From Butyrivibrio sp. (GTDB lineage Bacteria > Bacillota > Clostridia > Lachnospirales > Lachnospiraceae), in assembly GCF_017940685.1 (NCBI RefSeq), contig NZ_JAGAYD010000178.1:1-48006 (forward strand): a stretch of 48,006 nt of DNA, given 5' to 3'. Below the pieces are notes generated by a model. It ran no database searches, was not told where the DNA came from, and was given only the letters and a program-made list of their open reading frames with translations. Below are positions 1,355 to 21,312 of this stretch, piece by piece. The position numbers and the translations under genes were made by a program. Numbering within the stretch: position 1 is the first letter of the stretch; each line of letters begins with the position of its first letter.

Positions 1355-1717
1355 ATGAAATACGTATCATTAAAAGATGGTGAGAAGCTGCTTGTTGAGG
1401 CTCTGATGCTTGCAAAGGAACTTGGCCACACCGTAGAGATCAAAAATTACGATGAAGGCTATATGCGAGAGGAAGGCTGTCCTGATTATTATGATTTTGA
1501 GTTTGAGTCTGTTATCGACGGAGATGTCGTTGCTACAGATGAGATGCCATCTTACGAAGGAGATGGCTGCAACGATGTTGTGATAAGTGTTAAGGACGGA
1601 GCAGAACTCTATGAATACAGCGTGTGGTATTCAGACGATTCCGAGGATCGCATTTATATTGATGAGATCAAGAACTACCTGGAAACATATAAGTCAGCCT
1701 CGGTTATTGGCAGTTGA
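1355..1717 (+). CDS. Unrecognised acidic protein
   Basis: 120 residues, strongly acidic, no membrane segment, no recognised motif; a DYYDFEFES segment sits near residue 45. Preceded by AAGGAGG eight bases before ATG, and starts 14 nt after the stop of the membrane protein, so it is cotranscribed. It is the last gene before the first copy of the repeated promoter/leader element, whose -35 box begins inside its last codons. Function unknown. Confidence 0.75.
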   Translation: MKYVSLKDGEKLLVEALMLAKELGHTVEIKNYDEGYMREEGCPDYYDFEFESVIDGDVVATDEMPSYEGDGCNDVVISVKDGAELYEYSVWYSDDSEDRIYIDEIKNYLETYKSASVIGS

Positions 1718-1866
1718 CTTGCAAATACGCCTATAGTATAATATTCATAACGTCAAAGTACATATAGTAAAAATCATCTAAGCCGTTTACATTCGTGTAA
1801 GCGGCTTTTTTGACGTTTTCTAATAGATTTTCTTTAAATTCCGCCGTTTCCGGCGTTTACATAGAT
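1714..1866 (+). promoter_or_regulatory. Repeated promoter and structured leader, copy 1
   Basis: Promoter TTGACT (1714-1719), 17 bp, TATAAT (1737-1742). About 7 nt later, at the expected transcript start, AACGTCAAA (1749-1757) pairs with TTTGACGTT (1809-1817). Inside is the hairpin AGCCGtTTAC/GTAAgCGGCT (1781-1805), followed by TTTTTT, which overlaps the outer 3' arm, so it resembles an intrinsic terminator. After a conserved block TAGATTTTCTTTAAATT comes a hairpin CGCCG/CGGCG (1842-1855), then TTTACATAGAT. Copies 2-5 share all parts. The inner stem here differs in sequence from the other copies but keeps its position. Confidence 0.8.
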
Positions 1867-1910
1867 TACCAATAAAACCAATTTCATACTTTGCAAAGGA
1901 GAAATAAAAA

Positions 1911-3668
1911 ATGAAGAAATATTTTTTTGTGACACTGATCATAAATGCGGTTGAGTTGCTTAAAAACAACTTCGACATAAAAGAGGAAGCCAAAAGCGTC
2001 TTCGCTTCGAATGAATACTACCGCGATACCTTAATGGATGAAATGTCTGAGGATGGCATTCTTGAAGAGTATGTTGACCTCTTTGGCTGCGGCGATCCCG
2101 AGGTGCTTTTTGACAACTATATCACTGTAGATACGGAGAATGTTGAATACAACTTCGAAGAAGATGCAGCCGATGAAGGCCAGCACAGAGACTGCTGCTT
2201 CTTTAAGGTATACTGCGATTTTGAGCTTGAAAAGTACATCAAGGCCATGGATCAGGGAAACGCTGAAGACGCGGGAGAGGATGACGAGATTGCCATCACT
2301 GTTTTCCGTGATACTATTGATCCTAATTTCCATGGAGACGACAATCTTGGAACACTTATCATCAAGAAGGATATGCTTATGAAGTATTTCAAGGAGCGCA
2401 TCCTACCTGACTTCAGGGGTGATGATAAGACTGTCTCTGACGAGGGACTTCTTCAGGAATGGCTTGATGAGTACACGGCTGATTCAACTACTGACCTTTA
2501 TGATTTCATACAGCTTGAAGAGAAGAGGGCCAAAGACAAAGAACACTATCAGAAACTCTATGATGAGAAGTATGACAAGCTTCTTGAACAGGCTAAGAAT
2601 GACGGCCTAAACGATCCTGAGGCATGGGCTAATGATACCTTTGATGAGGATGCTACACCGGAAGAGGTTGTAGGCTATTACCTTGCATGGCATGGTGATG
2701 AAGCATTTGAGGATTGGATGGAAAATCTTAGATTTTATCAATCTAAGAGCGGCATTACCAGCCCCGCCAAGAAAGAGCATGATAACAAGGTAACAAAGCT
2801 CCTTGAAAAGCTCTTTGGTCAGGTTTGGGTTGATGAGATTGAGTGGGATATCCCTGAAGGGAAGAAGCCATCCAATAAGCTCACTGATGCAGTAGCCATT
2901 CCATCTACAGTAGTAGATGTGAAAGAGTACCTTTCTAAAGTGTATGGCTTCAGCCCTAAAGCATTCAGGTGTGAGTCATTCGGTATTCGTTTGGTCTATA
3001 AAGATCCGAATTCTCGAGAGCTTGAATTTTGTCTTCCAGAAGCAATGACAGCATACCTTGAAAGCGGCGATCTCTATAATCCGATTACTGAGACTTTCGT
3101 TTCTCAGTACAACGACAAAGGCCACATCATTGTCTATACAGGCATTGATGTCAAGAGAGCAAGACAGCTTGCAGATGAGACCTATCATGCAGGTGAAGAG
3201 TCATGGACATCTGTTATCGGACCAGGCGGTGCTATCTACGAAAAGGATTTTCCTTTTGATAGTGCTGCTGACAGCTGGATTAGAGATAATTTCTCTAAGG
3301 ATGGCTGGGTTGTAGCTGATACTGATACGTTTTCCAATGAGAATAAGGTTTTCATACACCATGCATGGGATTTTGTTCCTGTTGACTGGATTGTTGGAAT
3401 CTCAGGTTCAGATATGGACGATGTAGAGGTAAAGGTTGTGCACGGCACAACTTATCAGCTCAAGAAACAGCTCATTTCAGAGATTCAGAACATCATAGCT
3501 GATGGCGATCCTGATGATTGGGATTCGGGAACTGAGGAAGCAGACGAAATCGTTATGCATAATGACGGAAAACTTTATGCGTATGTATGCTTTAAGGACT
3601 GTCACTTTGATCTGACGGCAACACCGATTTCAGTTGCATCGCACATTGATTTGTCCGGTGTGTGCTAG
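1911..3668 (+). CDS. Large unrecognised acidic protein, first gene of leader-1 operon
   Basis: 585 residues, very rich in Asp and Glu, with no signal peptide convincing enough to call (the N-terminus is mildly hydrophobic but contains charged residues soon after). AAAGGAG precedes ATG by 9 nt. Residues about 410-450 hold a module (DVKRARQLADETYHA) resembling one in the 564 product. No nucleotide-binding or metal motif is evident. It is the first gene downstream of leader copy 1 and is followed by switch element C and the 3744 gene. Function unknown; a phage- or plasmid-specific accessory protein is the most that can be said. Confidence 0.8.
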   Translation: MKKYFFVTLIINAVELLKNNFDIKEEAKSVFASNEYYRDTLMDEMSEDGILEEYVDLFGCGDPEVLFDNYITVDTENVEYNFEEDAADEGQHRDCCFFKVYCDFELEKYIKAMDQGNAEDAGEDDEIAITVFRDTIDPNFHGDDNLGTLIIKKDMLMKYFKERILPDFRGDDKTVSDEGLLQEWLDEYTADSTTDLYDFIQLEEKRAKDKEHYQKLYDEKYDKLLEQAKNDGLNDPEAWANDTFDEDATPEEVVGYYLAWHGDEAFEDWMENLRFYQSKSGITSPAKKEHDNKVTKLLEKLFGQVWVDEIEWDIPEGKKPSNKLTDAVAIPSTVVDVKEYLSKVYGFSPKAFRCESFGIRLVYKDPNSRELEFCLPEAMTAYLESGDLYNPITETFVSQYNDKGHIIVYTGIDVKRARQLADETYHAGEESWTSVIGPGGAIYEKDFPFDSAADSWIRDNFSKDGWVVADTDTFSNENKVFIHHAWDFVPVDWIVGISGSDMDDVEVKVVHGTTYQLKKQLISEIQNIIADGDPDDWDSGTEEADEIVMHNDGKLYAYVCFKDCHFDLTATPISVASHIDLSGVC

Positions 3669-3699
3669 GACTGCTTAAAAATAATCAACACCCATATAG

Positions 3700-3729
3700 G
3701 GGGCAATTTATACTGCCCCTTGTGGGCAG
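3700..3729 (+). promoter_or_regulatory. Intercistronic three-segment RNA switch C
   Basis: GGGGCA 3700-3705 can pair with TGCCCC 3714-3719, or CTGCCC 3713-3718 can pair with GGGCAG 3724-3729. The two are mutually exclusive. The block GAGATTGGA follows directly and supplies the ribosome site for ATG 3744, exactly as in elements A and M. Confidence 0.55.
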
Positions 3730-3743
3730 AGATTGGAGAAAAA

Positions 3744-4028
3744 ATGGCGAATACATTAAAGTTACACGCAAGGGTAACAAAGGAAATCGAGGTAACAGAA
3801 GAGCAGATGGAAAGGCTCTGTAACTTTCTTTGTGGAAGTACAGAAAATTGTGATGTCACAGACATCAAGGAGGCTTTTCTCAAGGGCGTAGATTCTGGCA
3901 ATTATGAGGCAGGCTACATCCCTCAGGCCTGGATTCAGGTCGATTTCGAACGGCTTGGCGATGACAATCCAATCAAACAATACCTTGATGAAAATCAGCT
4001 CAATTTCGATGATATTGAGTTGTACTAA
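3744..4028 (+). CDS. Unrecognised small protein
   Basis: 94 residues from ATG 3744; a TTG 24 nt upstream is in frame but lies inside the hairpin arm, so the ATG with GGAG at 3735-3738 is preferred. The N-terminal strand-like half (TLKLHARVTKEIEVTEEQ) and the DVTDIKEAFLKG helix suggest a small alpha/beta fold. Acidic C-terminus. No known motif. Second gene of the leader-1 operon, between elements C and D. Function unknown. Confidence 0.7.
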   Translation: MANTLKLHARVTKEIEVTEEQMERLCNFLCGSTENCDVTDIKEAFLKGVDSGNYEAGYIPQAWIQVDFERLGDDNPIKQYLDENQLNFDDIELY

Positions 4029-4053
4029 AACTAAATAGTAACTTCTGCATTAG

Positions 4054-4095
4054 GCAGGAAACGTTGATAAAAAATGTGCTCCTGCTTATGGCAGG
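4054..4095 (+). promoter_or_regulatory. Intercistronic three-segment RNA switch D
   Basis: GCAGGA 4054-4059 pairs with TCCTGC 4080-4085, or CCTGC 4081-4085 pairs with GCAGG 4091-4095 over a 5-nt loop. TAGGAGG (4101-4107), the ribosome site for 4115, follows 5 nt after the 3' arm. Confidence 0.5.
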
Positions 4096-4114
4096 GGTAC
4101 TAGGAGGTTTTAAA

Positions 4115-5122
4115 ATGAGATTTGAGAAAAATATTGACAGCAACACAATCCTTGTATCATCAGTAACTGACAGTGATGCGGTAGTTCTTGAGACACTTGG
4201 CTATACACATTCATCTGTCAACGACAGAGAAATTGATGGCAGGAACGGTTTCAAGATCAGCTGTGAGTGCTGGACAAAGAAGGAAACACAGCCTAAGCTT
4301 GGCGCATTTGTCCTTTCAACCTATTATTCTTTTGACAGCGACATGCCGGTATGGATGTTTGCTACAGAGGAGGAGGCAAGGGCAGAGCTTAAGCGTCAGT
4401 TTGATGAAGAGCTTCGCATCCAGACAGGAGAAAATGGACATGTTCAGGGAGAAGACCTTGAGATAATTTGTAGCGACGATTGGCATTTTGCTTCAATTAC
4501 AATTTCCGGATCTAATTGGGATTCAAATAAAGATGTAATGGAGTGGAATGTATCTCAGGTAAGAACGGATAAAGGTATCGGTTCAGAGATACCCGTTCCT
4601 GCAAAGGATGATTTCATGAATCCACCTGTACCCGATGAGAATGAAGTTACAAAGCATATTGTAGAGCTTCTTGATCATAATGAGCTCTCTGCCGGAAACA
4701 TCTCAGAAGTTTTCAGAGCAATTCACAGACAGGATAGCTGTATCGGAGGCAAGATCTGGAGCCATAATGATATCAGAAGTCAGCTCAGGGATAACTACAA
4801 CATAGACTTATCAGATGACGCAGTAGCCATTATCGCGGATAATATCAACGACACTCTTGATGATTGTCACGATGCTGAATGGATGGCTATAGATGAGGCA
4901 ATCAGAATTTCTGACATCAAGATCAAGGTTACAGACATTGACTGGGATGTTGATGCGAATGACTTCGATGATGAGGCTGAGTATGATGCCGTAAATGAGA
5001 ATCTTCCAAAAGAGGTTGAAATTCCTCTTTCAAACCTTGAGAACGTCTTGATCGAAGATTATCTCTCAGATAACTACGATTACTGCGTCAAATCATTCAA
5101 GACAGGGGAGGCGGCAGCATGA
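4115..5122 (+). CDS. Unrecognised acidic protein
   Basis: 335 residues from ATG 4115, chosen because TAGGAGG lies 7 nt upstream; an in-frame ATG at 4064 would begin inside element D and read through the ribosome site. The N-terminal part is a mixed alpha/beta region with a helix MFATEEEARAELKRQFDEEL near residue 75; the C-terminal third is helical and acidic. No known motif. The stop overlaps the next start (ATGA at 5119-5122), indicating translational coupling. Function unknown. Confidence 0.75.
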   Translation: MRFEKNIDSNTILVSSVTDSDAVVLETLGYTHSSVNDREIDGRNGFKISCECWTKKETQPKLGAFVLSTYYSFDSDMPVWMFATEEEARAELKRQFDEELRIQTGENGHVQGEDLEIICSDDWHFASITISGSNWDSNKDVMEWNVSQVRTDKGIGSEIPVPAKDDFMNPPVPDENEVTKHIVELLDHNELSAGNISEVFRAIHRQDSCIGGKIWSHNDIRSQLRDNYNIDLSDDAVAIIADNINDTLDDCHDAEWMAIDEAIRISDIKIKVTDIDWDVDANDFDDEAEYDAVNENLPKEVEIPLSNLENVLIEDYLSDNYDYCVKSFKTGEAAA

Positions 5123-5646
5123 GCGACAAGATAACAGTTCTTAAAGAAGTTACATATCCAGTTCAGGGGACTACTAAGTTAAGGCTTTATGATGAAGATT
5201 TTGATCAGTCCGGTACAGACCTTGAATTCTTTGGCAATATCAGCGCAGCTCCACTCGGACTGCTGCGCATTCGCAAAGTACATGTTGTATGTGAACCCGA
5301 TGAGTATTTCAAGAACGGGTTTGAGTACGATGAATACAAGGTAGATGTTTTTCAGGCCAAGAACGAAGCTATTCTTGAAGCCTATGAGCATGGTCAGTAT
5401 TACCCCAAGGCTGTAAAGAAAAGATACGGCCTCAACTGTGAGACTGCAAGCTTTGTCTGTGAGACCAAGTTTGGTTCCGACAAATTTAGCACCGGAGCAG
5501 ATGGATATTACGCCAACCTTACTCAGATGAAACAGTACTATGGAATGATTCTTCATTTCTCATTTGCAGACGACATGTTTACATTTGAAGAGCTGGAAGG
5601 AAGGTTCCTTTGCTTGTGGGCCAAGAGAAAGGCTGTTGTTGCTTAA
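5119..5646 (+). CDS. Unrecognised protein, translationally coupled to 4115
   Basis: 175 residues. Its ATG overlaps the upstream stop as ATGA, with GGGGAGG in the end of the upstream gene acting as ribosome site. Mixed alpha/beta composition with several aromatic residues; no membrane segment or known motif. It is the last gene of the leader-1 operon: leader copy 2 starts 5 nt after its stop. Function unknown. Confidence 0.75.
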   Translation: MSDKITVLKEVTYPVQGTTKLRLYDEDFDQSGTDLEFFGNISAAPLGLLRIRKVHVVCEPDEYFKNGFEYDEYKVDVFQAKNEAILEAYEHGQYYPKAVKKRYGLNCETASFVCETKFGSDKFSTGADGYYANLTQMKQYYGMILHFSFADDMFTFEELEGRFLCLWAKRKAVVA

Positions 5647-5651
5647 AACTG

Positions 5652-5802
5652 TTGTGTTTTCAATACACTTATAGTATAATAAAACCAACGTCAAACGTAA
5701 TAAGTAAAAACATTCAAGAGTCATGGCACATCTGCCGTGGCTCTTTTTTGACGTTTCAGATAGATTCCCCTAAATTCCGCCAGAAGTGGCGTTTAAATAG
5801 AT
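5652..5802 (+). promoter_or_regulatory. Repeated promoter and structured leader, copy 2
   Basis: TTGTGT (5652-5657), 17 bp, TATAAT (5675-5680). Outer stem AACGTCAAA (5687-5695) with TTTGACGTT (5747-5755). Inner hairpin GAGTCATGGC (5718-5727) with GCCGTGGCTC (5734-5743), then six T. Second hairpin CGCCA/TGGCG (5778-5791); the A-T closing pair compensates for the G-C pair of copy 1, which is covariation. It leads to the 57-codon gene at 5829. Confidence 0.85.
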
Positions 5803-5828: not shown

Positions 5829-6002
5829 ATGAAAGCTAAACCATGCACGCTGATTATGAACAGCCCTCTTAATGGTTATATCTTCACTCCCATGGAATGT
5901 GAAAGCATTGCAAAAGCAATAAAAATCGCTACAGAGTGGGAATGTCCATTCCGCATCTTTGATAAGGACGGACAGCAGATAGGACAGGGCTGGAGAAAGT
6001 GA
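5829..6002 (+). CDS. Small unrecognised protein, first gene of leader-2 operon
   Basis: 57 residues, ATG 5829 to TGA 6000-6002, with AAGGAAGG upstream. Two cysteines flank a helical centre (PMECESIAKAIKIATEWEC) and the C-terminus reads FRIFDKDGQQIGQGW, a strand-turn-strand pattern. It directly follows leader copy 2 and lies 8 nt before the next start, so it is very likely translated although short. Function unknown. Confidence 0.65.
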   Translation: MKAKPCTLIMNSPLNGYIFTPMECESIAKAIKIATEWECPFRIFDKDGQQIGQGWRK

Positions 6003-6010
6003 GGAAAACA

Positions 6011-6727
6011 ATGATAACAAATATCAAAAAAGTATATTTCCATATCAAAGGTATGGAGACATCAAAAGAAAGAGAAGGGATAAAGGGCGACCCAAATTAT
6101 ATCCTTGCGTCTCTCAATTACGACTCCGTAGGAGGCTTGTGCTATTTCTGGGACATTCGCCCGGTATATAAGTACATGCTTGGCGACGTAGAGATGGTCG
6201 CAGAACCCTTTGGTCTTGCAGTAGCAACACCTTATCTCAGGGAAAGTCTTGTAAGATGTGGCCGGAAGACTTTTAAGAAGGAAGCGCAGGCTATTGAGCT
6301 ATTTGATAGCAATGTAGTATCAGCTATTACGCATAGACTCAAATACAACATCGAGCTTGAAGACGAAATGAACGGCTACTTTAAGACAGATGACCTTCAG
6401 TGGTGTAAGAAGGTTTCTAACCATGAATTTGATCTCGTAGAGGTTAGGAGTCAGCTTAACCCTGAAGAGTTTGATGTTGTAGCAGGCAGTGTTGACATTT
6501 CTGATTACTCAGAAGATGAGCAGGAAGCATATGTAGAAGGATATTATCAGAGCCTTGATGATATTAAGACGCAATATCCTAACGATTATGCTCAGATCAT
6601 TGCCGAGTGCATCTTTGAGCAGACTCACGAGGTTGAGCTTACGAGCTTTGGCCCTTATGCATCAGAAAATGATGCTGAGAAAGAAGCAGAACGCTACATC
6701 AAGGCTCAGAAAGAGGTGGTTGCATGA
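6011..6727 (+). CDS. Unrecognised acidic protein
   Basis: 238 residues from ATG 6011, which has GAGG six bases upstream; an in-frame GTG at 5999 overlaps the previous stop and is less well placed. Mixed composition, acidic C-terminal half (DISDYSEDEQEAYVEGYY). No membrane segment and no known motif. The last codons supply GAGGTGG for the overlapping start of the next gene (ATGA at 6724). Function unknown. Confidence 0.75.
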   Translation: MITNIKKVYFHIKGMETSKEREGIKGDPNYILASLNYDSVGGLCYFWDIRPVYKYMLGDVEMVAEPFGLAVATPYLRESLVRCGRKTFKKEAQAIELFDSNVVSAITHRLKYNIELEDEMNGYFKTDDLQWCKKVSNHEFDLVEVRSQLNPEEFDVVAGSVDISDYSEDEQEAYVEGYYQSLDDIKTQYPNDYAQIIAECIFEQTHEVELTSFGPYASENDAEKEAERYIKAQKEVVA

Positions 6728-7101
6728 ATTATAAGATAGCAATCATCAAGATGGGTCGGTTAGACAAATTCACTCAGAGGCATGTTATAGTAAGCACTCC
6801 TACTGATTGTTTTACACTGTCCAGACATAAGGGAGGCGATATAAGCCTTTGGTCTGGAGGATTAACAGTAGAAGAGGGAGAACAGCTTGTACTTGCATAT
6901 AAGAATGACCCTCATTTCTTTGGACGACTTAGGAAACGGCTCTACGAAGAAAATGAGTGCGAAGGCTGCTCAGAAAGAGGCCTTTATACATACGAGAGCT
7001 TCAAAGAAATGCTTGAGCCGTTTGGCCTTGAAGAGAAGTATATCAGACTACTTTTCGAGACAATTTGCAAAAATGATGCTGAAATGATTATCGAAAACTA
7101 A
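6724..7101 (+). CDS. Unrecognised protein coupled to 6011
   Basis: 125 residues, ATG overlapping the upstream TGA. The N-terminal half is strand-rich with a SLWSGGLTVEEGEQL segment; the second half has a CEGC pair near residue 80 and is helical. No known motif. Followed by switch element E. Function unknown. Confidence 0.7.
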   Translation: MNYKIAIIKMGRLDKFTQRHVIVSTPTDCFTLSRHKGGDISLWSGGLTVEEGEQLVLAYKNDPHFFGRLRKRLYEENECEGCSERGLYTYESFKEMLEPFGLEEKYIRLLFETICKNDAEMIIEN

Positions 7102-7111
7102 AGTAACTTTA

Positions 7112-7160
7112 CCCGCCACTAGCCGGGAGTAGTTCATAAGTACTCCTGCGGTGGGGGAGT
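7112..7160 (+). promoter_or_regulatory. Intercistronic three-segment RNA switch E
   Basis: Outer CCCGCC 7112-7117 with GGTGGG 7150-7155 encloses GGAGTA 7126-7131 with TACTCC 7141-7146. Alternatively ACTCC 7142-7146 pairs with GGAGT 7156-7160, which excludes both. The string GTGGGGGAGTG recurs exactly in element N, and both precede paralogous 60-codon genes (7179 and 25195). Confidence 0.55.
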
Positions 7161-7178
7161 GCTACGAGGTACAATATA

Positions 7179-7361
7179 ATGAAGAAATTTAGAGTATGGG
7201 CAAAAATGACATCTTATGCTTACCTGGATGTAGAAGCAGAGACCGCAGAAGAAGCTTACGCGATTGCTGATTCAACAGATGGAGGAGAGTTTATCTCTGA
7301 CGAATTTAAAGGCGATTGGGAGGTTGATCCTGACTGCGATATTCAGGAAGTAGATGAGTAA
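7179..7361 (+). CDS. Small DpnD/PcfM-like protein
   Basis: 60 residues with the pattern of small DpnD/PcfM-type proteins: a strand (KKFRVWAKMTSYAYLDVEAE), then an Ala/Glu helix (TAEEAYAIADS) and an acidic tail. The 25195 product (60 residues) has the same layout and is a paralogue. GAGG lies upstream of ATG after element E. The family occurs in conjugative elements and restriction loci, but its biochemical role is not something I can state. The assignment rests on pattern only. Confidence 0.6.
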   Translation: MKKFRVWAKMTSYAYLDVEAETAEEAYAIADSTDGGEFISDEFKGDWEVDPDCDIQEVDE

Positions 7362-7391
7362 CCCTACAATATAAGAAAAGAGGAACCCAAA

Positions 7392-8069
7392 ATGGTAAAA
7401 GAAGTATATGGAGATCTGTTAAAGCAGCCTGTAGATATCATAGCTCATCAGACGAACTGCGCCGGAGTTATGGGTGCGGGAATCGCTTTACAGATCAAGA
7501 AATCTCTTTTGACTTCAGAGGAATATAACAAGTACGTTAATATCTGTAAACAGCAGGGAGCTGACCTTCTTGGTAAAACACAGCTCCTTGAAGCTCCTGA
7601 TGGCAGAATAATCGCTAACTGTTTCGGTGAGAATATCCCTACAGGAAAAGGAAAAGACACCGACTACGATGCTTTGATGCACGCGGTAGCCAAGATCCGT
7701 AACTATGCGAAAGCAAGCGGACTTAAGGTAGGTGTTCCCGGACTTATGGGATGTGGCCTTGCAGGAGGTGACTGGCGTATCGTAAAAGATATTTTATATA
7801 AGCTCTTTGGTGCCAAAGATGAGCCTGAGCTTATCATCTGCTATTTTGATAAGGATGAGTTTTACAAGAACAATCCCGATCAAAAGCCAAGACAGCTTCA
7901 TACAGAACGCGGAGATATATACGTAGAAAGGACTTTTAGGTCAAAGGAGGAAGCTTCTGCGGAAGGATATTATTATTCCTTCCGTTCTTCAGAACTTGGT
8001 AAAGACCTCTTCTCTAAGGCATTAGATGACAGAGGCTTACGCCATTCCTTTGCGATAGTAGAGGAATGA
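7392..8069 (+). CDS. Macro-domain (ADP-ribose-binding or -hydrolysing) protein
   Basis: 225 residues. The first 160 are a macro domain: GDLLKQPVDIIAHQTNCAG with the ligand-loop Asn, VMGAGIALQIKK, and the phosphate-loop segment VGVPGLMGCGLAGGDW near residue 120. Macro domains bind ADP-ribose and many remove it from proteins, DNA or RNA. The last 65 residues are an extension I do not recognise. AGAGGAACCC precedes ATG. It lies 1.3 kb upstream of two PARP-like genes in a neighbouring operon with the same leader type, so it may reverse their modification or process their product; that link is inference. Confidence 0.85.
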   Translation: MVKEVYGDLLKQPVDIIAHQTNCAGVMGAGIALQIKKSLLTSEEYNKYVNICKQQGADLLGKTQLLEAPDGRIIANCFGENIPTGKGKDTDYDALMHAVAKIRNYAKASGLKVGVPGLMGCGLAGGDWRIVKDILYKLFGAKDEPELIICYFDKDEFYKNNPDQKPRQLHTERGDIYVERTFRSKEEASAEGYYYSFRSSELGKDLFSKALDDRGLRHSFAIVEE

Positions 8070-8083
8070 ATAGATATATAGTA

Positions 8084-8137
8084 CTCCGACGGGAGGCCCT
8101 TATGGGTAGCAAAAAATACGCTGCCCGACGGGGCAGC
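8084..8137 (+). promoter_or_regulatory. Intercistronic three-segment RNA switch F with GACG-loop hairpins
   Basis: A hairpin CTCC-GACG-GGAG (8084-8095) is followed by GGGTAGC 8104-8110, which can pair with GCTGCCC 8120-8126 (one G-U), while GCTGCCC can instead pair with GGGCAGC 8131-8137 across a GACG loop. GGAGG for the 8154 gene follows 4 nt later. The same GACG loop occurs twice in element K. Confidence 0.55.
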
Positions 8138-8153
8138 CATGGAGGATTATATT

Positions 8154-8384: not shown

Positions 8385-8399
8385 CAATCAGTCTAAGAG

Positions 8400-8433
8400 A
8401 GCTGCTTTCCGAGAAATCGGAGGCAGCTTTTTT
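8400..8433 (+). terminator. Intrinsic terminator after the leader-2 operon
   Basis: AGCTGCTTTCC (8400-8410) pairs with GGAGGCAGCT (8419-8428) with a small mismatch, followed by six T. It closes the operon 5829-8384. Confidence 0.85.
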
Positions 8434-8458
8434 ATTGTTTTTATTTCTTAAATTGAAA

Positions 8459-8486: not shown

Positions 8487-8590
8487 CGATAATCGTGATA
8501 AAATCATGGGTGTGAAAAAAGCGTATTTTTTGGCTTAAATATACGAACCACAGCCATCGAAAATACGAACTTATTTTGGGGGTTTAGTTT

Positions 8591-14486: not shown

Positions 14487-16631
14487 ATGATAACAAAAAC
14501 TTTTGTAGCTGATGGTTCAGCACAGGCAGTACTTACACAGGAACTTGCAGAAGCAAACGAGGCTTATCGCAATTCGGGAATCACTCTTATGAGCGATCTG
14601 GAGTATGACAAGAAACTTGAAGAGCTCGCAACTCTCGAAGAGAAGAACGGCTTTAAGTACGACATCAGCCCTACCGACAAGGTTGGCGCTGAGGTTGTAT
14701 CAGAACTTAAGAAGGTAACTCATGAAGCTCCTGCGCTTTCCCTTGATAAGGTAAAGTATAAGGATAGAGAAGACCTTGTTATGTGGCTTAAAAATAGCGA
14801 TGATCATGACAACGCCGTGATAAGCTGGAAAAATGACGGCCTTACAGTGGTGGCCACCTATGATAATGGCAAGCTTACTCAGGCAGTTACCAGAGGAGAC
14901 GGAGTTGTCGGCAGCGATATTACCCATAATGCAAGATTCTTTAAGGGACTTCCTTTGGAGATTCCTTTCAAGGACCATCTTGTTGTCAGAGGCGAAGCTG
15001 TAATGACTTTTGCAGAGTTCGAGAAAGTAAATGCCGAAAATGACGGCATTTATGAGAACCCCCGCAATCTCGCATCCGCAACCATTCAGATGCTTGATGC
15101 AAACGAGTCAAAGAAGCGTGAGATCAGATTTATTGCTTTTGAGCTTGTAGAACCTGGAACCGATGTTCTCATCGGAAATATCGACTTCAATCTTCAGTAT
15201 CAAATTGAGAGATTTGGCTGGCTCTACTCATTGGGATTTAACGTAGTTGAGAACGAAAAGGTAAATTCCACCAATATCCTTAATAGGATAGAGGTTTGGA
15301 AGGCCGCTCTTTCAGAACTTGACTACCCCACAGATGGCCTTGTTATCTCTTTTGATGACATGGAGTACGGTATGAGTCTTGGGAACACCGGACATCACTT
15401 CCGTCATTCAATGGCTCTTAAGTGGTCAGACGAGACGGTAGAGACTACAATCCGTGATATTGAGTGGAGTGTAGGAAAGACCGGAGTCATCACTCCTGTA
15501 GCTATTTTTGACGAGGTTCGTCTTGGCCTTGGTAGCAATGTTACAAGAGCAAGCCTTCACAATCTCAGCATTATGAGAAAGCTCGGAGTTAAAATTGGAA
15601 GCAAGGCCCAAGTTTATCTTGCAAACATGATTATTCCGCAAATTGCAGAAACAGACGGACAAGGAGAGGATATTCATTATCCGGGAACATGTCCTATCTG
15701 CGGAGAAACAACTTATGTTTCTGAAGATAATGGAGTCAGGACACTCCACTGTGAAAACAGGAACTGCGCGGCACGTCAGATTGGAAGCTTAATGAACACC
15801 TTCTCAAAGGATGGTTTGTTCGTTAAGGGCCTTGGCGAAAGTCAGATAGTAGATCTTATGGGAGCAGGACTTGTAGATTCAACACCACTTTCATTTTACC
15901 GTCTAGTGAACAAGGACAAAGATTCTATATGCCAGAATGACATCACGTTTTTAGCAATGGAAGATGGTCTTCTTTCATTGGATGGCTGGGGAAAGAAAAA
16001 ATGGGATAATCTCATGGATGCGATTGATGCTTCCAGAGGCACAACACTTCAGAAATTCCTGTACAGCCTTAACATTCCGCTCCTTGGAAACGACCTTTCA
16101 AAGAAGCTGTCAAAGTACTGGAAGGATGACATCAATGCCTTCAAGGCATTTGTAGAGTCTTTCACAGGACTTTATGAAGGTGATTATTCCCGTGATGATG
16201 AGGCATATGCAGAAGGAGTTTATGAAGCAGAATACAGAAAGCTCTGTGAGATTGATGGTGTAGGAGCTGAGAAAGCTAAGAACATCATCAACTGGGTTGA
16301 AGAGACTACAGCTTATCGTGAGAAATATGAAGATTTCATTGCTCTCATTAACGAGCTGAACTTCCCTGAGCCTAAGGCAGAGTCTTCTGACAACAGCCTT
16401 GAAGGGCTCACCTTTGTAATCACCGGTTCAGTCCATGATTATAAAAACAGAGATGAGTTTAAGGTATCTGTTGAGGCGAGAGGCGGTAAGGTCGCAGGAT
16501 CAGTAAGTGCTAAGACTTCGTTCCTTGTGAATAATGATATCACCTCTACTTCAGGAAAGAACGCCAAAGCCAAGGAGTTGAACATTCCGATCATTTCAGA
16601 GGATGAGTTCATTTCACGCTTTGGAAGGTAA
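14487..16631 (+). CDS. ligA: NAD-dependent DNA ligase
   Basis: 714 residues, about the normal length, with domains in order: Ia (MSDLEYDKKLEEL near 36), adenylation site KNDG with Lys115, RGEAVMTFAEF and ENPRNLASATIQ, DGLVISFDD, the OB-fold segment VGKTGVITPVA, a zinc finger (CPIC...CENRNC near 400-425), helix-hairpin-helix repeats and a C-terminal BRCT domain from about 636. It seals DNA nicks using NAD. The motif is KNDG rather than the common KLDG, still a valid KxDG. ATG 14487 is preferred over 14472 because GGAGG lies between them. First gene of the leader-4 operon. As hosts carry their own ligA, this is a replicon-borne extra copy. Confidence 0.95.
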   Translation: MITKTFVADGSAQAVLTQELAEANEAYRNSGITLMSDLEYDKKLEELATLEEKNGFKYDISPTDKVGAEVVSELKKVTHEAPALSLDKVKYKDREDLVMWLKNSDDHDNAVISWKNDGLTVVATYDNGKLTQAVTRGDGVVGSDITHNARFFKGLPLEIPFKDHLVVRGEAVMTFAEFEKVNAENDGIYENPRNLASATIQMLDANESKKREIRFIAFELVEPGTDVLIGNIDFNLQYQIERFGWLYSLGFNVVENEKVNSTNILNRIEVWKAALSELDYPTDGLVISFDDMEYGMSLGNTGHHFRHSMALKWSDETVETTIRDIEWSVGKTGVITPVAIFDEVRLGLGSNVTRASLHNLSIMRKLGVKIGSKAQVYLANMIIPQIAETDGQGEDIHYPGTCPICGETTYVSEDNGVRTLHCENRNCAARQIGSLMNTFSKDGLFVKGLGESQIVDLMGAGLVDSTPLSFYRLVNKDKDSICQNDITFLAMEDGLLSLDGWGKKKWDNLMDAIDASRGTTLQKFLYSLNIPLLGNDLSKKLSKYWKDDINAFKAFVESFTGLYEGDYSRDDEAYAEGVYEAEYRKLCEIDGVGAEKAKNIINWVEETTAYREKYEDFIALINELNFPEPKAESSDNSLEGLTFVITGSVHDYKNRDEFKVSVEARGGKVAGSVSAKTSFLVNNDITSTSGKNAKAKELNIPIISEDEFISRFGR

Positions 16632-16646
16632 AAAATATTAAACCCA

Positions 16647-16677
16647 GCGGGGACAGGTAAAACAGCCTTATCCCCGC
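16647..16677 (+). other. Intercistronic hairpin before thyA
   Basis: GCGGGGA (16647-16653) pairs with TCCCCGC (16671-16677). No T-run follows, so it is not an obvious terminator. A short CGCA...TGCG pair lies just before the GGAG of the next gene. Confidence 0.5.
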
Positions 16678-16743
16678 GCAAGGTTTATACATCAAATGTA
16701 AAAAAAAACGCAGTTGAATTTGCGAAAAAAAGGAGAAAGAAAC

Positions 16744-17667
16744 ATGAGAAAAGAAGATAATATGGCTAAAGCCACATTTCAGAAAATCTTGGATGAGGGG
16801 TGTATGGATATAAATCCACGTCCGCATTATGCAGACGGAACACCGGCACATACACTCTCATTCAATCACCACATGCAGAGTTATGATCTGTCCAAGGGAG
16901 AATTTCCTATCATTACACTCAGGCCTATTGCAGTTAAAACAGCAATAGCTGAGCTGTTATGGATCTATCAGCAGCAATCAAGTGACCTCGTGTTATTTGA
17001 TGCCCTGATAAATAAGCCTTCTTTCTATGATGGCGAAAACTGGAAGATCAATAACTGGTGGGAAGAATGGGCTCTCAGAAATGAGGACGGAAGTTATAAG
17101 CTCAACGAGCTTGGACACCCTTATATTGGGCAGTGCTATGGAGCCACGGTAAAACGCCATGAGCTTGTAAACAATGTCATTAACGGCATCAAGAAAGATC
17201 CTGATGGCCGCCGTCACATTATTAACATGTGGCAGGAACAGGACTTTAAGGAACCTCATGGTTTAAAGCCATGTGCATATCAGACAAACTGGAATGTAAG
17301 ACATGGAAAAGATGGCGTTGATTATCTTGATATGTGCCTTTATCAGAGATCAAGTGATTATGCCACAGCTGGATGCATCAATCAGGTACAGTATGCTACA
17401 TTTCTTGTGATCATGGCACACTGTCTTGGATATAAGCCTGGTAAATTTACCTGGTTCGTAGACAATATCCAGATCTATGACAGGCATATCGAGCAGGTTA
17501 AGGAAATGCTTGACCGTGATTCTATCGACTGTGCTCCTTATATTTGGATCAATCCGGACAAGACGGACTTTTACAGCCTTACTCTGGATGACATTAAGCT
17601 CAAGGATTATCCAAGAGAGCTGATTAAGGAGACAAACCCTCAGCTCACTTTTGAGCTCGGCATCTAA
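16744..17667 (+). CDS. thyA: Thymidylate synthase (ThyA type)
   Basis: 307 residues. It methylates dUMP to dTMP with methylene-tetrahydrofolate. The catalytic Cys177 is in GLKPCAYQ; DGRRHI near 154 supplies phosphate-binding Arg; QRSSD at 201-205 and NQVQYATF match the substrate-binding segment; DNIQIYDRH is the conserved C-terminal motif. AAAGGAG precedes ATG 16744; an upstream TTG in frame is rejected. Together with dut at 46675 it suggests control of the dTTP supply by the replicon. Cotranscribed with ligA. Confidence 0.95.
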   Translation: MRKEDNMAKATFQKILDEGCMDINPRPHYADGTPAHTLSFNHHMQSYDLSKGEFPIITLRPIAVKTAIAELLWIYQQQSSDLVLFDALINKPSFYDGENWKINNWWEEWALRNEDGSYKLNELGHPYIGQCYGATVKRHELVNNVINGIKKDPDGRRHIINMWQEQDFKEPHGLKPCAYQTNWNVRHGKDGVDYLDMCLYQRSSDYATAGCINQVQYATFLVIMAHCLGYKPGKFTWFVDNIQIYDRHIEQVKEMLDRDSIDCAPYIWINPDKTDFYSLTLDDIKLKDYPRELIKETNPQLTFELGI

Positions 17668-17736
17668 ATATGCAGTAGATAAGACAATGGAAGTGCTAAT
17701 GCTTCGTTCCTTGTGGACAATGATTTTGGAAAGTAA

Positions 17737-17790
17737 TCTCCGACGGGAGACACCTAACGGTGGTTGTTATATTAAACCACCGACGGGTGG
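17737..17790 (+). promoter_or_regulatory. Intercistronic three-segment RNA switch K with GACG-loop hairpins
   Basis: Hairpin TCTCC-GACG-GGAGA (17737-17750), then GGTGGTT 17759-17765 can pair with AACCACC 17775-17781, or CCACC 17777-17781 can pair with GGTGG 17786-17790 across a GACG loop. AAGGAG for ATG 17806 follows. The arrangement is nearly the same as in element F. The 69 nt between the thyA stop and this element show nothing else. Confidence 0.55.
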
Positions 17791-17805
17791 TCTCTAAGGA
17801 GAAAC

Positions 17806-18273
17806 ATGAACAGTTACTATAACACAAAAGGAGTTAGGGAAATATGCCATGATGTTAAGAATACGTCTTCTAATAAAGATGCAATTCTGACAATGGCCGA
17901 ATATTTCTCTGACCTGAATATCCTTGATGGGTCAAGTATCATCATCCCTGCACCACAGCATTACGGATATGCTGATTACACTTTGCAGATTGCAGAACGT
18001 GTATCTACTGTAACAGGAGCTAAGGTCCTGAACATCTTAAAGTGCCATCCAAGGGATATGCTGTATGACCTTAAAAAGCAAGGAAAAAGAAATGCAGCGG
18101 GCCTTTACTTATCGGAAGATATCAAGTTATCAGGGAAGTATTTCTTCCTCGATAACGTGATAAGCACCGGAAAGACTTTTAGAGAAGCTTGCAGCGTAAC
18201 AAAATTAAATCTTACTGCTTTAGTATATGCGGTAGATGAAACTAACTATAGACCCCTACGCATGGGACAATAA
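17806..18273 (+). CDS. ComF-like phosphoribosyltransferase
   Basis: 155 residues. The PRPP-binding signature of type I phosphoribosyltransferases is clear: YFFLDNVISTGKTF near residues 112-125 (hydrophobic strand, Asp, TG-KT loop). Upstream SSIIIPAPQH resembles the first strand and the loop after it. Such enzymes couple a base or other group to 5-phosphoribosyl pyrophosphate; the acceptor cannot be read from the sequence. AAGGAG precedes ATG. It lies between thyA and an unknown gene in the ligase operon, fitting a nucleotide-salvage context. The 3' end contains one arm of switch L. Confidence 0.8.
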   Translation: MNSYYNTKGVREICHDVKNTSSNKDAILTMAEYFSDLNILDGSSIIIPAPQHYGYADYTLQIAERVSTVTGAKVLNILKCHPRDMLYDLKKQGKRNAAGLYLSEDIKLSGKYFFLDNVISTGKTFREACSVTKLNLTALVYAVDETNYRPLRMGQ

Positions 18274-18299
18274 GCTATATCCCCCTGCGTAGAGGGGAT
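18253..18299 (+). promoter_or_regulatory. Intercistronic three-segment RNA switch L
   Basis: CCCCTACGCA (18253-18262, inside the end of the upstream gene) can pair with TGCGTAGaGGGG (18286-18297). Alternatively ATCCCC 18279-18284 pairs with GGGGAT 18294-18299. Both need the same GGGG, so they are exclusive. Because the first arm is in coding sequence, a translating ribosome would decide the fold. Confidence 0.5.
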
Positions 18300-18317
18300 G
18301 TAGCAGTTAGGAGAGCT

Positions 18318-18818
18318 ATGGGAATTATATTAAAAGATTTCCAGGATAAATTAGCAGGCAGGATCAAGATGTTCTCTAATGGCGGCTACTCAAATACGCA
18401 GCTTGCTAAAAGAAGAGACGTATCTGACAACATCCTTGCCTATGCAAAGAAAACCTTTCCGGAGATAGCTGATTTTCTTGAAATAAAGTATTTTTCAGGA
18501 TGCGGCTATTTCAGTGGCTATTCAGATTTTATGATCACATACAAAAACTGGCCAATAATCGCCATGAGCACTCACTCAAACACTATCGAAAAAAGGAGAT
18601 ATGATACAGAATATTACATTAAGTATTCTGACAGGATATGTGAGGCGGCCAATGTGGGTGATATTCCAGATCTTGAGCATGCATATACTCTTGATATGAT
18701 TGCTGATGAGTGCATGGAGTATTCAAGAGAATCAAAGCGTGCAGCCATAGAGTTTGAAATAAAAGAAAAAGAACATGAGCTTGAGAAATTAAAATCGCAG
18801 CTTACATCCATCGGATAA
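18318..18818 (+). CDS. Unrecognised protein with C-terminal coiled coil
   Basis: 166 residues. The N-terminal 100 residues are mixed with aromatic-rich segment YFSGCGYFSGYSDF; the C-terminal 35 residues are a charged heptad-like helix (FEIKEKEHELEKLKSQL). No known motif. AGGAG precedes ATG. Fourth gene of the leader-4 operon. Function unknown. Confidence 0.75.
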   Translation: MGIILKDFQDKLAGRIKMFSNGGYSNTQLAKRRDVSDNILAYAKKTFPEIADFLEIKYFSGCGYFSGYSDFMITYKNWPIIAMSTHSNTIEKRRYDTEYYIKYSDRICEAANVGDIPDLEHAYTLDMIADECMEYSRESKRAAIEFEIKEKEHELEKLKSQLTSIG

Positions 18819-18880
18819 CAACAAGGTATGCAAAGAAGCTGAGATAAGGAAAAAAACTAAATAGCAACAATCGATGCCTA

Positions 18881-18929
18881 CGGGCTGCCAAGAGCTGAAA
18901 AGCCAACTTGTCCGCCCGAATGGAGCGGA
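18881..18929 (+). promoter_or_regulatory. Intercistronic three-segment RNA switch M
   Basis: CGGGC 18881-18885 pairs with GCCCG 18914-18918 around a small GCT-GAAA-AGC hairpin, or TCCGC 18911-18915 pairs with GCGGA 18925-18929. It is preceded by AACTAAATAGCAAC as in A and D, and followed by the GAGATTGGA block shared with A and C. Confidence 0.55.
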
Positions 18930-18942
18930 GATTGGAATAATT

Positions 18943-19320
18943 ATGATTTATGCAAAACTAAATGAAACTGTAGAAAGATGCAAGAAAGCTGCTTTTGCAG
19001 CATTCACTCTTGCAGACATCATAAACGCCAGCGAGAGCGGCGGCATTGGACCGGCAAGGAAACTTCTTGGCGGCACATTCACAAAGAAAGGTGATGAGAT
19101 ATCGGTAAGACTTAACTACACATATCCTGAAACATGTGGGCTCTCAGACAGAGTGTACCACATAAAGGATGCAGGTAAGACCTTTACAGATGTCTATACT
19201 TTCAAGAACGGCAAGGCAAGTCTTAATGGTGGCAAGCTGTTCGAAGAGCCTTGGCTTTCACAGACTAAGATGATGCAGGAGAATTTCTTCTCAGAGTTTT
19301 CAGATATTATTTGTGCATGA
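18943..19320 (+). CDS. Unrecognised small protein
   Basis: 125 residues from ATG 18943, placed after GAGATTGGA; an in-frame upstream start at 18874 would read through the switch element and is rejected. A helical N-terminus (TVERCKKAAFAAFTLADI) is followed by a strand-rich middle. No known motif. Last gene of the ligase operon, closed by a terminator. Function unknown. Confidence 0.7.
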   Translation: MIYAKLNETVERCKKAAFAAFTLADIINASESGGIGPARKLLGGTFTKKGDEISVRLNYTYPETCGLSDRVYHIKDAGKTFTDVYTFKNGKASLNGGKLFEEPWLSQTKMMQENFFSEFSDIICA

Positions 19321-19331
19321 TACGTACATTT

Positions 19332-19360
19332 AGAGCTTTCCTAACAGGAAGGCTCTTTTT
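19332..19360 (+). terminator. Intrinsic terminator after the ligase operon
   Basis: AGAGCtTTCC (19332-19341) pairs with GGAAgGCTCT (19347-19356), followed by TTTTT. Confidence 0.85.
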
Positions 19361-19386
19361 GTTTGCTTATGTGCATAATATTTACA

Positions 19387-19416
19387 TTGAAAAATACACC
19401 TTTAGTGTAGTATGAT
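19387..19416 (+). promoter_or_regulatory. Promoter with TACACC/GTGTA dyad before the HTH-ATPase gene
   Basis: TTGAAA (19387-19392), 18 bp, TATGAT (19411-19416). The spacer contains TACACCTTTAGTGTA (19395-19409), an inverted repeat TACAC/GTGTA. The string AAATACACCTTTAG also occurs at 35261-35274. The position inside the promoter suits a repressor operator. Confidence 0.55.
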
Positions 19417-19438
19417 GTACGCAGAAAGGAGATGGGAT

Positions 19439-21019
19439 GTGGGAACTGAAAACAATAAATTAAAAGTACTTAGAGAAAGGGCCGGCCTTTCACAGGAAGA
19501 ATTAGCAATACTAATGGGACAAGCAGGATGGGACAAATTCAGCCGAGAGAATATCACAAGATATGAGCAAGGCGTTGGTCTTAAATTTGTAGATGCAATA
19601 AGATACGCTCAGTGCTGTAATGCAAGACTTGATGAGATGGCTAAGCTCCTATATCCTGACATGCCTTACAATCTATACCACAATCCTGAAAAGGCCATGG
19701 AAGACTTAAAGAATAACATTAAAATAGAAAACCCAAAGGGAGAATTATACGAGAAGACAAGAGAGGCTATGTCTGATTACAATATAACAATACTCAACGC
19801 AAAGGATGAAGACAGTGCTGACAATCTCAACCTTAAGGTGATTGCTGGATCTGGAGAAGGAAAATCATGTCAGCTCATAATGCCGACACTGCTCAGAGAA
19901 ATGCAAAAAGCAAATGACAATTACAAACCCAGGCCAAGACGAAGCAATATAGTTCTTGGTGGACATGCAAGCATCGCAGAAGCCATAATGAAATCCGAGA
20001 TCACTCATTGTATGGAAGAAGGCGAGAATCTATTTATCGTTATTCCAAAAGACTCTCATTATAAGAACGAGCTTGTAAGAAGGGGCAAGGAGAAAGGATA
20101 TAGGGTAGTAGATATTGCATCGCTTAATGATATAGACATTAAAAGCATGCTAATGTATGAGCGTTATGACATGAGAGGCGCTATAGATGTCTTTGTTGAT
20201 TGCCTTTTGGAAGATAGCAGAGATCCTGATGATTTTTGGCGTATTGGAACTAAAAGAATTCTGATAGAGGCTTTTACCGATATTCTAACGGAAGCTAAAG
20301 AAGGAAAACTTGCGTCGCTTCTACTTGACAGGCTTGATGGCTCCTTTGAGCTTTCTAACGATATTAGCGGTGTGGTATATGATATATGTCTTATGAGCGC
20401 ACGTATGGCTGTTACTAATCTCTATAAGCTTAACACGGTTATATCAGGCGAGCAGAGGCCACTATTTGAGGCTCTTTTGGAAAAACATATATATCTGATA
20501 ACAGAAGACGCATTCTCCCCGTATGCAGGCTATATCATTCCGCAGTATGCCAGAAACTATGAGTTTTCTCATTCTTTAGACTCAAAGTCAGCTCATACAA
20601 ACATTTTTGTGTTTGAAAGTTCAAATTCGTGCAAGATTATTCCGGGGAGCACACTATATGAAGCTATTGCCTCATATAGATTTGTGAATTTTAATCTGAG
20701 ATTCTTTAGCATAGAGAATGCTCAAGATACATTCGATACAGTAGCAAATGACATTCTTAAGATTGTAGATCTTGGAGTAGCTACAGAGTTTTGCAGTTAC
20801 GAAACACTTTCTTATATACACGGAAAGAAAAAAGTGAAAGAGAAAACCCGAAGAGGGCGAAAAAAGTTGAAGAGCGAGGAGACGCAACTACATGAGTACG
20901 CAATGCACCTCAGAAAGCAAAACATCAATTATGTCAAAGTTAAAGCTTTCCCTGACAACGAGGTAATTGAATATACCATATATTTAACGCATGAAAACGA
21001 GTCACGGCAAGACTCATAA
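19439..21019 (+). CDS. XRE helix-turn-helix fused to a TraG/VirD4-like ATPase domain
   Basis: 526 residues from GTG 19439, chosen for AGAAAGGAG eight bases upstream. Residues about 6-60 are a Cro/C1-type helix-turn-helix (LRERAGLSQEELAILMG). From about 130 a P-loop-like AGSGEGKSC appears, then NLFIVIPKDSHYKNELV (like the DPKGE segment of coupling proteins), VVDIASLND and DPDDFWRIGTKRILIEAF, matching the order of motifs in TraG/VirD4 coupling ATPases. The usual N-terminal membrane helices are missing. A basic patch (KTRRGRKKLK) lies near the C-terminus. It may couple DNA recognition to an ATPase; role unproven. Stands alone behind its own promoter. Confidence 0.65.
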   Translation: MGTENNKLKVLRERAGLSQEELAILMGQAGWDKFSRENITRYEQGVGLKFVDAIRYAQCCNARLDEMAKLLYPDMPYNLYHNPEKAMEDLKNNIKIENPKGELYEKTREAMSDYNITILNAKDEDSADNLNLKVIAGSGEGKSCQLIMPTLLREMQKANDNYKPRPRRSNIVLGGHASIAEAIMKSEITHCMEEGENLFIVIPKDSHYKNELVRRGKEKGYRVVDIASLNDIDIKSMLMYERYDMRGAIDVFVDCLLEDSRDPDDFWRIGTKRILIEAFTDILTEAKEGKLASLLLDRLDGSFELSNDISGVVYDICLMSARMAVTNLYKLNTVISGEQRPLFEALLEKHIYLITEDAFSPYAGYIIPQYARNYEFSHSLDSKSAHTNIFVFESSNSCKIIPGSTLYEAIASYRFVNFNLRFFSIENAQDTFDTVANDILKIVDLGVATEFCSYETLSYIHGKKKVKEKTRRGRKKLKSEETQLHEYAMHLRKQNINYVKVKAFPDNEVIEYTIYLTHENESRQDS

Positions 21020-21161
21020 TACTTTTGTCTAAGTATAAATGAATTTCTGTATTTATAGATCAAGTCAGCTTATCATTTTATTATACTGCTTTTGTATTGT
21101 TAAAGCCATTTCCGATGTCATCAGTCATGGTAGTTCATACCTGAGTTTGGAAGATTTTCAC
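21020..21161 (+). other. AT-rich intergenic region
   Basis: About 140 nt between the HTH-ATPase stop and leader copy 5. I see no gene, no convincing terminator and no repeat in it. Confidence 0.5.
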
Positions 21162-21312
21162 TTGCATTTTCATTACACCCATAGTAAAATAATTGTAACG
21201 TCAAATAGAAATGCGTAAAAAACTGTAAGAGTCATGACTTCATGGTCATGGCTCTTTTTGACGTTTCATATAGATTTTCTTTAAGTTCCGTCCATTCAGG
21301 GCGTTTACATAT
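21162..21312 (+). promoter_or_regulatory. Repeated promoter and structured leader, copy 5
   Basis: TTGCAT (21162-21167), 17 bp, TAAAAT (21185-21190). Outer stem AACGTCAAA (21197-21205) with TTTGACGTT (21257-21265). Inner hairpin GAGTCATGAC (21229-21238) with GTCATGGCTC (21245-21254): GAC/GTC replaces GGC/GCC of copies 2 and 3, a compensatory change. Five T follow. Second hairpin CGTCC/GGGCG (21289-21303). Confidence 0.85.

Follow-up and report, generated by a model that had tools for sequence, protein, structure and literature searches.

Conserved sequences named EGeRS precede several operons of variable cargo on conjugative plasmids of the pLS20 family; EGeRS1 is described as a region of 420-750 bp that includes inverted repeats, blocks upstream transcription and contains no detectable sigma-A promoter, and EGeRS2 as having a strong promoter and TTATCCC dual-heptamer operators (PMC8708921). 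We found a comparable arrangement in a stretch of 48,006 nucleotides from Butyrivibrio sp. (NCBI RefSeq assembly GCF_017940685.1, contig NZ_JAGAYD010000178.1, positions 1 to 48,006 of the forward strand; hereafter the window), where a conserved block precedes several operons of variable cargo on an element that is conjugative by its gene content. In contrast to EGeRS1 as described, promoter sequence and terminator here share one short cassette of about 150 nt.

Terminators combined with antitermination are also described for other Gram-positive conjugative elements. The conAn system is presented as a protein plus RNA whose loading is restricted to polymerase that started at the conjugation promoter (PMC8955417), and canT of Tn916 as an RNA region of 341-452 nt (PMC11658703); compared by description only, both are placed at the start of one operon or region, whereas here one leader recurs at many operons. 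Frpo/ssi sequences are likewise reported as common regulatory sequences before leading-region genes, such as those for SSB and antirestriction, but Frpo is described as folded single-stranded DNA (PMC11541004) and the promoter here is not specially paired. SPBRE of SPbeta, which is said to recur at many promoters of one mobile element and to be read by one master regulator, MrpR, is given as a 15-bp DNA site (PMC10516654), whereas here RNA hairpins covary. In the attenuator regulons reported by Naville and Gautheret, genes with no relation to one another are preceded by 5' terminators that are related, some of them 'mobile attenuators', but many of those described derive from insertion sequences (IS) or are riboswitches (PMC2965389), whereas each copy here has its own promoter and all those found are on one kind of element. 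Among the mostly open-access papers listed for leading regions, Butyrivibrio plasmids and leaders, conAn/pLS20, establishment genes, SPBRE, conserved plasmid leaders and attenuators, none reports the cassette in its title or in the start of its abstract.

A preliminary description of the window had placed five copies of a promoter, a start box, a hairpin with a T-run and a second hairpin, and our reading of the sequence confirmed all five at their positions. In each, a -35 TTG, a 17-nt spacer and a TATAAT or TAAAAT are followed by AACGTCAAA, seven bases past the -10; then come the hairpin with the T-run and a second hairpin of the form CGNNN/NNNCG. The first hairpin (HP1) ends 58-60 nt from the predicted start and runs into the U-run, and the second (HP2) starts 30-34 nt past HP1. 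At the level of sequence, the order runs from a promoter of the sigma-70 type through the expected transcript start AACGUCAAA, a repeat of this box about 14 nt on, HP1 ending near +58 and HP2 to the operon. The five copies comprise the following features.

1714-1742, + strand: copy 1 promoter, -35 TTGACT at 1714-1719, 17-nt spacer, -10 TATAAT at 1737-1742
1749-1757, + strand: copy 1 box1 AACGTCAAA, predicted transcript start at 1749
1766-1772, + strand: copy 1 box2 AGTAAAA, second copy of the box motif
1780-1807, + strand: copy 1 HP1, predicted terminator hairpin, d score 16.7
1809-1817, + strand: copy 1 outer 3' arm TTTGACGTT, overlapping the U-run
1842-1855, + strand: copy 1 HP2, CGCCG(TTTC)CGGCG
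5652-5680, + strand: copy 2 promoter, TTGTGT-17-TATAAT
5687-5755, + strand: copy 2 box1 (5687-5695), box2 (5703-5709), HP1 (5716-5745, d 25.2) and 3' arm (5747-5755)
5778-5791, + strand: copy 2 HP2, CGCCA(GAAG)TGGCG
9163-9191, + strand: copy 3 promoter, TTGCCA-17-TATAAT
9198-9264, + strand: copy 3 box1 (9198-9206), box2 CGTAAAA (9215-9221), HP1 (9226-9255, d 28.8) and 3' arm TTTTACGTT (9256-9264)
9288-9302, + strand: copy 3 HP2, CGCCC(ATTCA)GGGCG
13992-14020, + strand: copy 4 promoter, TTGCAA-17-TAAAAT
14027-14093, + strand: copy 4 box1 (14027-14035), box2 (14043-14049), HP1 (14054-14085, d 23.9) and 3' arm (14085-14093)
14116-14128, + strand: copy 4 HP2, CGTCC(AAT)GGGCG
21162-21190, + strand: copy 5 promoter, TTGCAT-17-TAAAAT
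21197-21265, + strand: copy 5 box1 (21197-21205), box2 (21214-21220), HP1 (21227-21256, d 12.5) and 3' arm (21257-21265)
21289-21303, + strand: copy 5 HP2, CGTCC(ATTCA)GGGCG

Fold z-scores of the five copies range from -4.9 to -7.7, and none of 200 shuffles per copy folds as well. The 3' arm had been described as pairing back to the 5' end of the transcript; in copy 3, the arm is TTTTACGTT, not TTTGACGTT, and the minimum-energy fold pairs it with box2 instead of the 5' end. Behind the copy-5 leader, at window 21330-21430, there is a further long hairpin structure that is kept in its orthologue in a second genome, G033, the 130-nt stretches folding at -35.7 and -35.2 kcal/mol; it is perhaps related to one behind another G033 leader.

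That several operons share one leader proved correct, but five was an undercount. A DNA search of the window's genome returned further copies on one other contig, C96, and covariance models built from nine copies (R1) or from 27 copies including the promoter (R2) raised the family to 28 copies over two elements. With R2 at E<=0.01 there are 13 copies in the window's own genome, all on the window contig (C24) and C96, and 15 in G033, a genome from a different species in the genus, where they are confined to contigs C21, C14 and C16. On every contig the copies occupy a single strand (5 and 8 copies on the two contigs of the own genome; 7, 5 and 3 on the three of G033). The 28th copy (G033:C14:53400-53514) was found later, and most feature statistics are therefore over 27 copies. 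Among these, TTG is present at -35 in 21, TATAAT in 13, TAAAAT in seven, the exact AACGTCAAA in 18 and a CG-type HP2 in 21; the promoter regular expression matches 18 of the 28 leaders and one site elsewhere.

The family was detected with R1 at E<=1e-6 in two of 80 genomes of the genus, own included, and in one of 397 sampled from the family, the own one; with R2 at E<=1e-4 the own genome was alone among 392 of the order and likewise among 391 of the class. These samples overlap, those of order and class apparently being without G033, and filtering was stricter whenever more than 40 genomes were searched. Elsewhere in the own genome, weak R1 matches (for instance 36.7 bits on C262) were not reported by R2, and two weak R1 matches in relatives (L153 and L154) were rejected as members, being terminators without a promoter. 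The exact promoter-plus-start pattern gave no match in viral contigs and two in genome contigs (L010 and L011), both without a terminator hairpin and taken as chance. A looser version returned at least 120 stretches in viral contigs, and an outer-stem pattern 20; the latter together with L010, L011 and L248 (23 sources) gave no R2 match at E<=0.01. One of the patterns used in copy searches had been tuned on copies already known. Blastn of one leader against plasmids and of another against phages found no matches. The leader family is real and has so far been found on one kind of element only. At position 30281 of the oriented G033 contig C16 (G33_C16), a promoter-like sequence and AACGTTAAA stand directly before a strong predicted terminator (d 27.3), with no linker and no box2; this site is possibly a reduced or decayed family member.

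Covariation was evaluated on the 21 of 27 copies with a CG-type HP2. Standard pairs fill 98.7% of the cells of this alignment and double-sided changes occur in nine of 15 pairs (46 cells); none of 500 shuffles reached the observed percentage paired, pairs, cells or covariation score, and 15 of 500 reached the fifth measure, further pair types (22 observed), values that are indications with a wide margin, as relatedness remains in the shuffle control and one of the sequences supplied the structure. When the partner is slid by 1-3 columns, pairing falls to 32-46%, and the loop-closing pair of HP2 is found in all four Watson-Crick types. HP1 and HP2 are strongly backed by covariation; support for the outer stem is weak. 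The covariation in the larger alignment and the 28 copies support the earlier proposal of a conserved functional RNA at many operons. That it is not a named motif also held, since Rfam gave no match at the gathering threshold in the whole window. On four leader loci, E<=5 produced six matches, all far under their gathering scores; the best (28.5 bits versus 59) lies outside the leader, and the single one overlapping a leader (SpF66, 18.0 bits versus 42) is on the opposite strand.

HP1 scores as an intrinsic terminator (d >0) in 25 of 27 copies and in none of 270 mononucleotide shuffles, by a d'Aubenton-Carafa-type score that looks for a GC-rich hairpin plus U-tract. Of the 28 leaders, 24 follow a codirectional gene and four an oppositely oriented one. 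At 22 of the 24 codirectional junctions the gap contains no other predicted terminator, and it is therefore probable that HP1 terminates the preceding operon as well; 11 of the 24 gaps are of 50 nt or less. Between +1 and HP1, no Shine-Dalgarno-like sequence occurs in the 27 copies and an ATG is present in only four, which argues against a leader-peptide attenuator. Ten leaders stand in the same gene context on both elements, and in each such pair the two copies are reciprocally the best match across elements. The leaders at 21197 and C96:6872 match each other slightly better within the element (237.8 versus 232.5 and 232.4), and copy 1 is nearest to C96:79607, indicating that recent duplication or exchange within the element also occurs.

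The start region is conserved from +1 to +9, with G at +4 and T at +5 in 27 of 27 copies. The second box reads NGTNAAA in 26 copies and CGTAAGA in the remaining one, at a G-to-G distance of 14 nt in 14 copies, 15 in nine, 13 in two and 16 in one; in two orthologous copies, the canonical ACGTCAAA sits in the second box and the first is changed. Conservation of the promoter spacer is raised at -23 to -19 (TACRC; 0.44-1.27 bits) relative to -32 to -24 (0.15-0.59 bits), and positions -15 and -13 are also more conserved. Perfect pairing between the 5' box and the 3' arm is seen in many copies, but the gain of own over swapped arms is slight (-7.18 versus -6.78 kcal/mol; permutation, p=0.12). CGTAAAA is present in seven of nine copies with a TTTTACG or TTTTGCG arm versus three of 12 with TTTGACG (Fisher p=0.024, or p=0.078 once orthologues are collapsed by hand), in a test chosen after the data were seen and leaving out the six of 27 copies with other arms; that the 3' arm tracks either box1 or box2 is suggestive only. 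Because the arm begins in the U-run, it would be complete only past the termination point and, from this order of transcription, the outer stem would not be an antiterminator in the ordinary sense. The idea that it opposes termination therefore found no support, either here or in the permutation result, and we rejected it.

We favour the reading that these leaders define an element-specific attenuator regulon that would be regulated (probability about 0.55), and the best description of it is a set of attenuators used like the EGeRS sequences of pLS20 and p576 without belonging to EGeRS. The 28 copies over two elements, the single strand per contig, the covariation of HP1 and HP2, and the conserved promoter core and +1 to +9 support this reading. 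By default, local polymerase would stop at HP1 and release a leader RNA of about 60-70 nt, and polymerase arriving from the upstream operon would be stopped likewise. Under some condition, for example when the element has just entered a new host, a factor acting on the promoter or on box1 and box2 would permit passage, and passage past HP1 would switch the leader-headed operons on together. The pairing of box and 3' arm, complete only in read-through RNA, may then shield the 5' end of the mRNA. The cargo, which includes SSB, ligase, nucleotide-synthesis and recombination genes and a DarA-like antirestriction domain, suits establishment after conjugation.

Several points weigh against this regulon. 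Starts, termination and read-through are all predicted from sequence, and the postulated factor comes without a candidate protein: a Pfam scan of 140 of the 164 predicted open reading frames (ORFs) of at least 75 aa on C24 and C96, plus one further ORF, recognised no candidate antiterminator, one scan returning the best 25 of 39 families. Six of 27 copies lack a CG-type HP2, six of 27 lack TTG at -35, and two fail the terminator score, one with an 11-nt loop that falls outside the scan and one at -8.0. Moreover, the order of promoter then terminator could simply give constant low expression. If all leaders worked so, HP1 would simply end the upstream operon, the promoter of the following one being tucked inside the junction, a fixed leak would supply the genes, and HP2 and the outer stem would stabilise the mRNA. 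Such an unregulated economy agrees with HP1 being the sole predicted terminator at most codirectional junctions, with the short gaps and with no regulator being recognised among the Pfam-scanned proteins. We nevertheless hold it to be rather unlikely: it leaves unexplained why paralogues keep +1 to +9, box2 and part of the spacer, why four leaders follow an opposite-strand gene, with no upstream operon to end, and why the promoter precedes the hairpin in 28 of 28 copies, although the model was built so and the reversed order would escape it.

A puzzle is that HP1 would have to halt transcription coming from upstream and still let locally started polymerase through if the operon is to be expressed. 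In the Q-dependent late promoter of lambda, the spacer carries additional conserved sequence, and a terminator a short way downstream yields a short RNA by default. The cassette has this same layout of promoter, spacer and terminator, but no Q-like protein was recognised among those scanned. In a Q-like scheme, a factor loaded on the TACRC spacer (-23 to -19), on the box1/box2 transcript, or on both, would mark local polymerases at about 13 operons, HP1 would stop upstream transcription only, and the establishment set would be on only after transfer; the raised conservation at -23 to -19, -15 and -13 would fit such a promoter-loaded factor, but we regard this version as improbable. The same spacer conservation, the repetition of the box beside the start site and the presence of helix-turn-helix proteins on the element, one of them 91% identical between the two elements and with a weak RstR match, also speak for control at the DNA level, with the boxes or TACRC as operators of a plasmid repressor or activator, like Reg of p576 or MrpR of SPbeta, and HP1 secondary. 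This we judge unlikely, as box spacing varies from 13 to 16 nt and the looser box motif also occurs outside leaders, in 13 intergenic matches on five contigs (five with the CGT core). In addition, the EGeRS2 dual heptamer TTATCCCnnTTATCCC is not above chance, with eight window matches, all with three mismatches and none at the five promoters, versus 4.86 expected (10 of 100 shuffles reach eight).

Alternatively, as in put, EAR, conAn or canT, the leader RNA, alone or with a factor, might modify polymerase so that it reads through HP1 and through terminators further on. Some leader-headed groups do contain further predicted terminators (window 8401-8427, d 37.2; 19333-19355, d 25.7; and the nrdD/nrdG gap, d 10.6), but so does the leaderless transfer region; moreover, HP2 is downstream of HP1 and cannot act on it, and its loops differ in length and sequence. 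We judge processive antitermination very unlikely, and nothing in the sequence speaks for the put-like version proposed earlier. There is no conserved boxA of the lambda nut or rrn kind in the leaders, GCTCTT (the boxA motif being GCTCTTT-like) appearing as part of the HP1 stem and changing with its partner strand in several copies. As for a LoaP/NusG partner, a single NusG match at E<=0.1 was obtained in the own genome (94.8% complete), on contig C101 and not on C24 or C96; with no NusG paralogue found on the element, we rejected this candidate on the basis of this gene search. A single-stranded DNA promoter of the Frpo/ssi type, working on the incoming strand, would suit cargo like leading-region genes and a strongly folding region. 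Over 27 copies, however, the mean pairing probability of -35/-10 is 0.51/0.52 on the plus strand and 0.50/0.55 on the minus strand, equal to that of 60 random windows of the element (0.51, standard deviation 0.22), single copies ranging widely from 0.14 to 0.96, and we deem it extremely improbable. These results argue against both a single-stranded DNA promoter and a NusG-type (LoaP) partner.

The contigs bearing the leaders encode VirB4-like and VirD4-like proteins and a cell-wall hydrolase, together with a ParM-like actin, a type IA topoisomerase, SSB, ParB_N and a recombinase; the VirB4, VirD4 and ParM-like genes point to conjugative plasmids, and an integrated form is possible. The region that holds the transfer genes is free of leaders. 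Of the 180 ORFs on C24 and C96, 83 have a reciprocal best hit on the other leader-bearing element. In the plasmid collection, the closest VirB4 is that of pCY186 from Butyrivibrio proteoclasticus B316, at 32% identity; pCY186 gave no R1 match above 28.3 bits, that best one being without a promoter, and four other genomes of the genus with a related VirB4 gave no R2 match at E<=0.01. At 35810-36257, pCY186 (L215) contains a repeat array with ACGTAAAAGGGAAT, perhaps iterons; it closely precedes the point where the circular record ends and its first gene, for a replication initiation protein, follows. An MmeI-like type IIG restriction-modification enzyme is encoded on C96 (L183:1230-4034, minus strand), on the same element as the leaders.

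The genes behind the five window leaders, with operon extents that we inferred, are as follows.

1911-5646, + strand: genes behind copy 1, without a Pfam match at cut-off; one weak DUF4274 match below it
5999-9154, + strand: genes behind copy 2, among them those for a DarG-like macro-domain protein and for a short tyrosine recombinase, with the predicted terminator at 8401-8427 between these two
9351-13983, + strand: genes behind copy 3, for PARP-WGR, PARP, metallophosphoesterase and PAPS-reductase-like proteins
14472-21019, + strand: genes behind copy 4, for NAD-dependent DNA ligase, thymidylate synthase and others, with the predicted terminator at 19333-19355
21425-23334, + strand: genes behind copy 5, for three proteins without a Pfam match, conserved on both elements

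Leaders also head genes for NrdD, NrdG, PAPS-reductase-like, YqaJ, a RecD-like helicase, DarA_C, an RNase-A-like domain, SSB and a 5'-nucleotidase-like protein, and many further cargo proteins have no Pfam match. This cargo resembles the establishment genes described for pLS20 plasmids (PMC8708921), and may serve establishment here. Cargo changes at a shared leader: in the own genome (G000), one leader is followed by nrdD and nrdG, whereas the three G033 contigs retain the leader but have no ORF matching either gene at 1e-5. The first protein behind copy 5 had no match in viral contigs or plasmids and occurs in three of 80 genomes of the genus, the third (G056) being just 23% identical. A DarG-like macro-domain gene and two PARP-domain genes stand behind neighbouring leaders (window 7392-12125), which suggests ADP-ribosylation chemistry as cargo. 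A 187-aa recombinase keeps, by eye, R, H-x-x-R, H and Y, which we take to be the recombinase residue motif; it does not look like a dead recombinase, and an MrpR-like repressor role for it was rejected.

Between the copy-4 leader and the ligase gene (window 14138-14466) lies a repeat of about 330 nt that is missing from the orthologous G033 site. It occurs at 16 places in pCY360 (NC_014389) and has matches in 18 of 61 genomes, own included, many to its last 57 nt only; this 57-nt end is found beside an IS200-like transposase and an OrfB gene in L255, and the repeat therefore looks like a miniature IS200/IS605-type element. On C96, a 454-aa protein with weak OrfB/TnpB and Cas12f1-like matches below cut-off is encoded behind a leader (L181:14321-15685, minus strand).

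To our knowledge, little is known about how establishment genes are switched on in conjugative elements of anaerobic gut bacteria. Here, one repeated cassette marks a proposed regulon by sequence alone and flags unknown genes as candidate establishment or anti-defence genes. Its presence in front of many gene groups suggests that a common switch controls them, and these genes may help the element to become established after entering a new cell.

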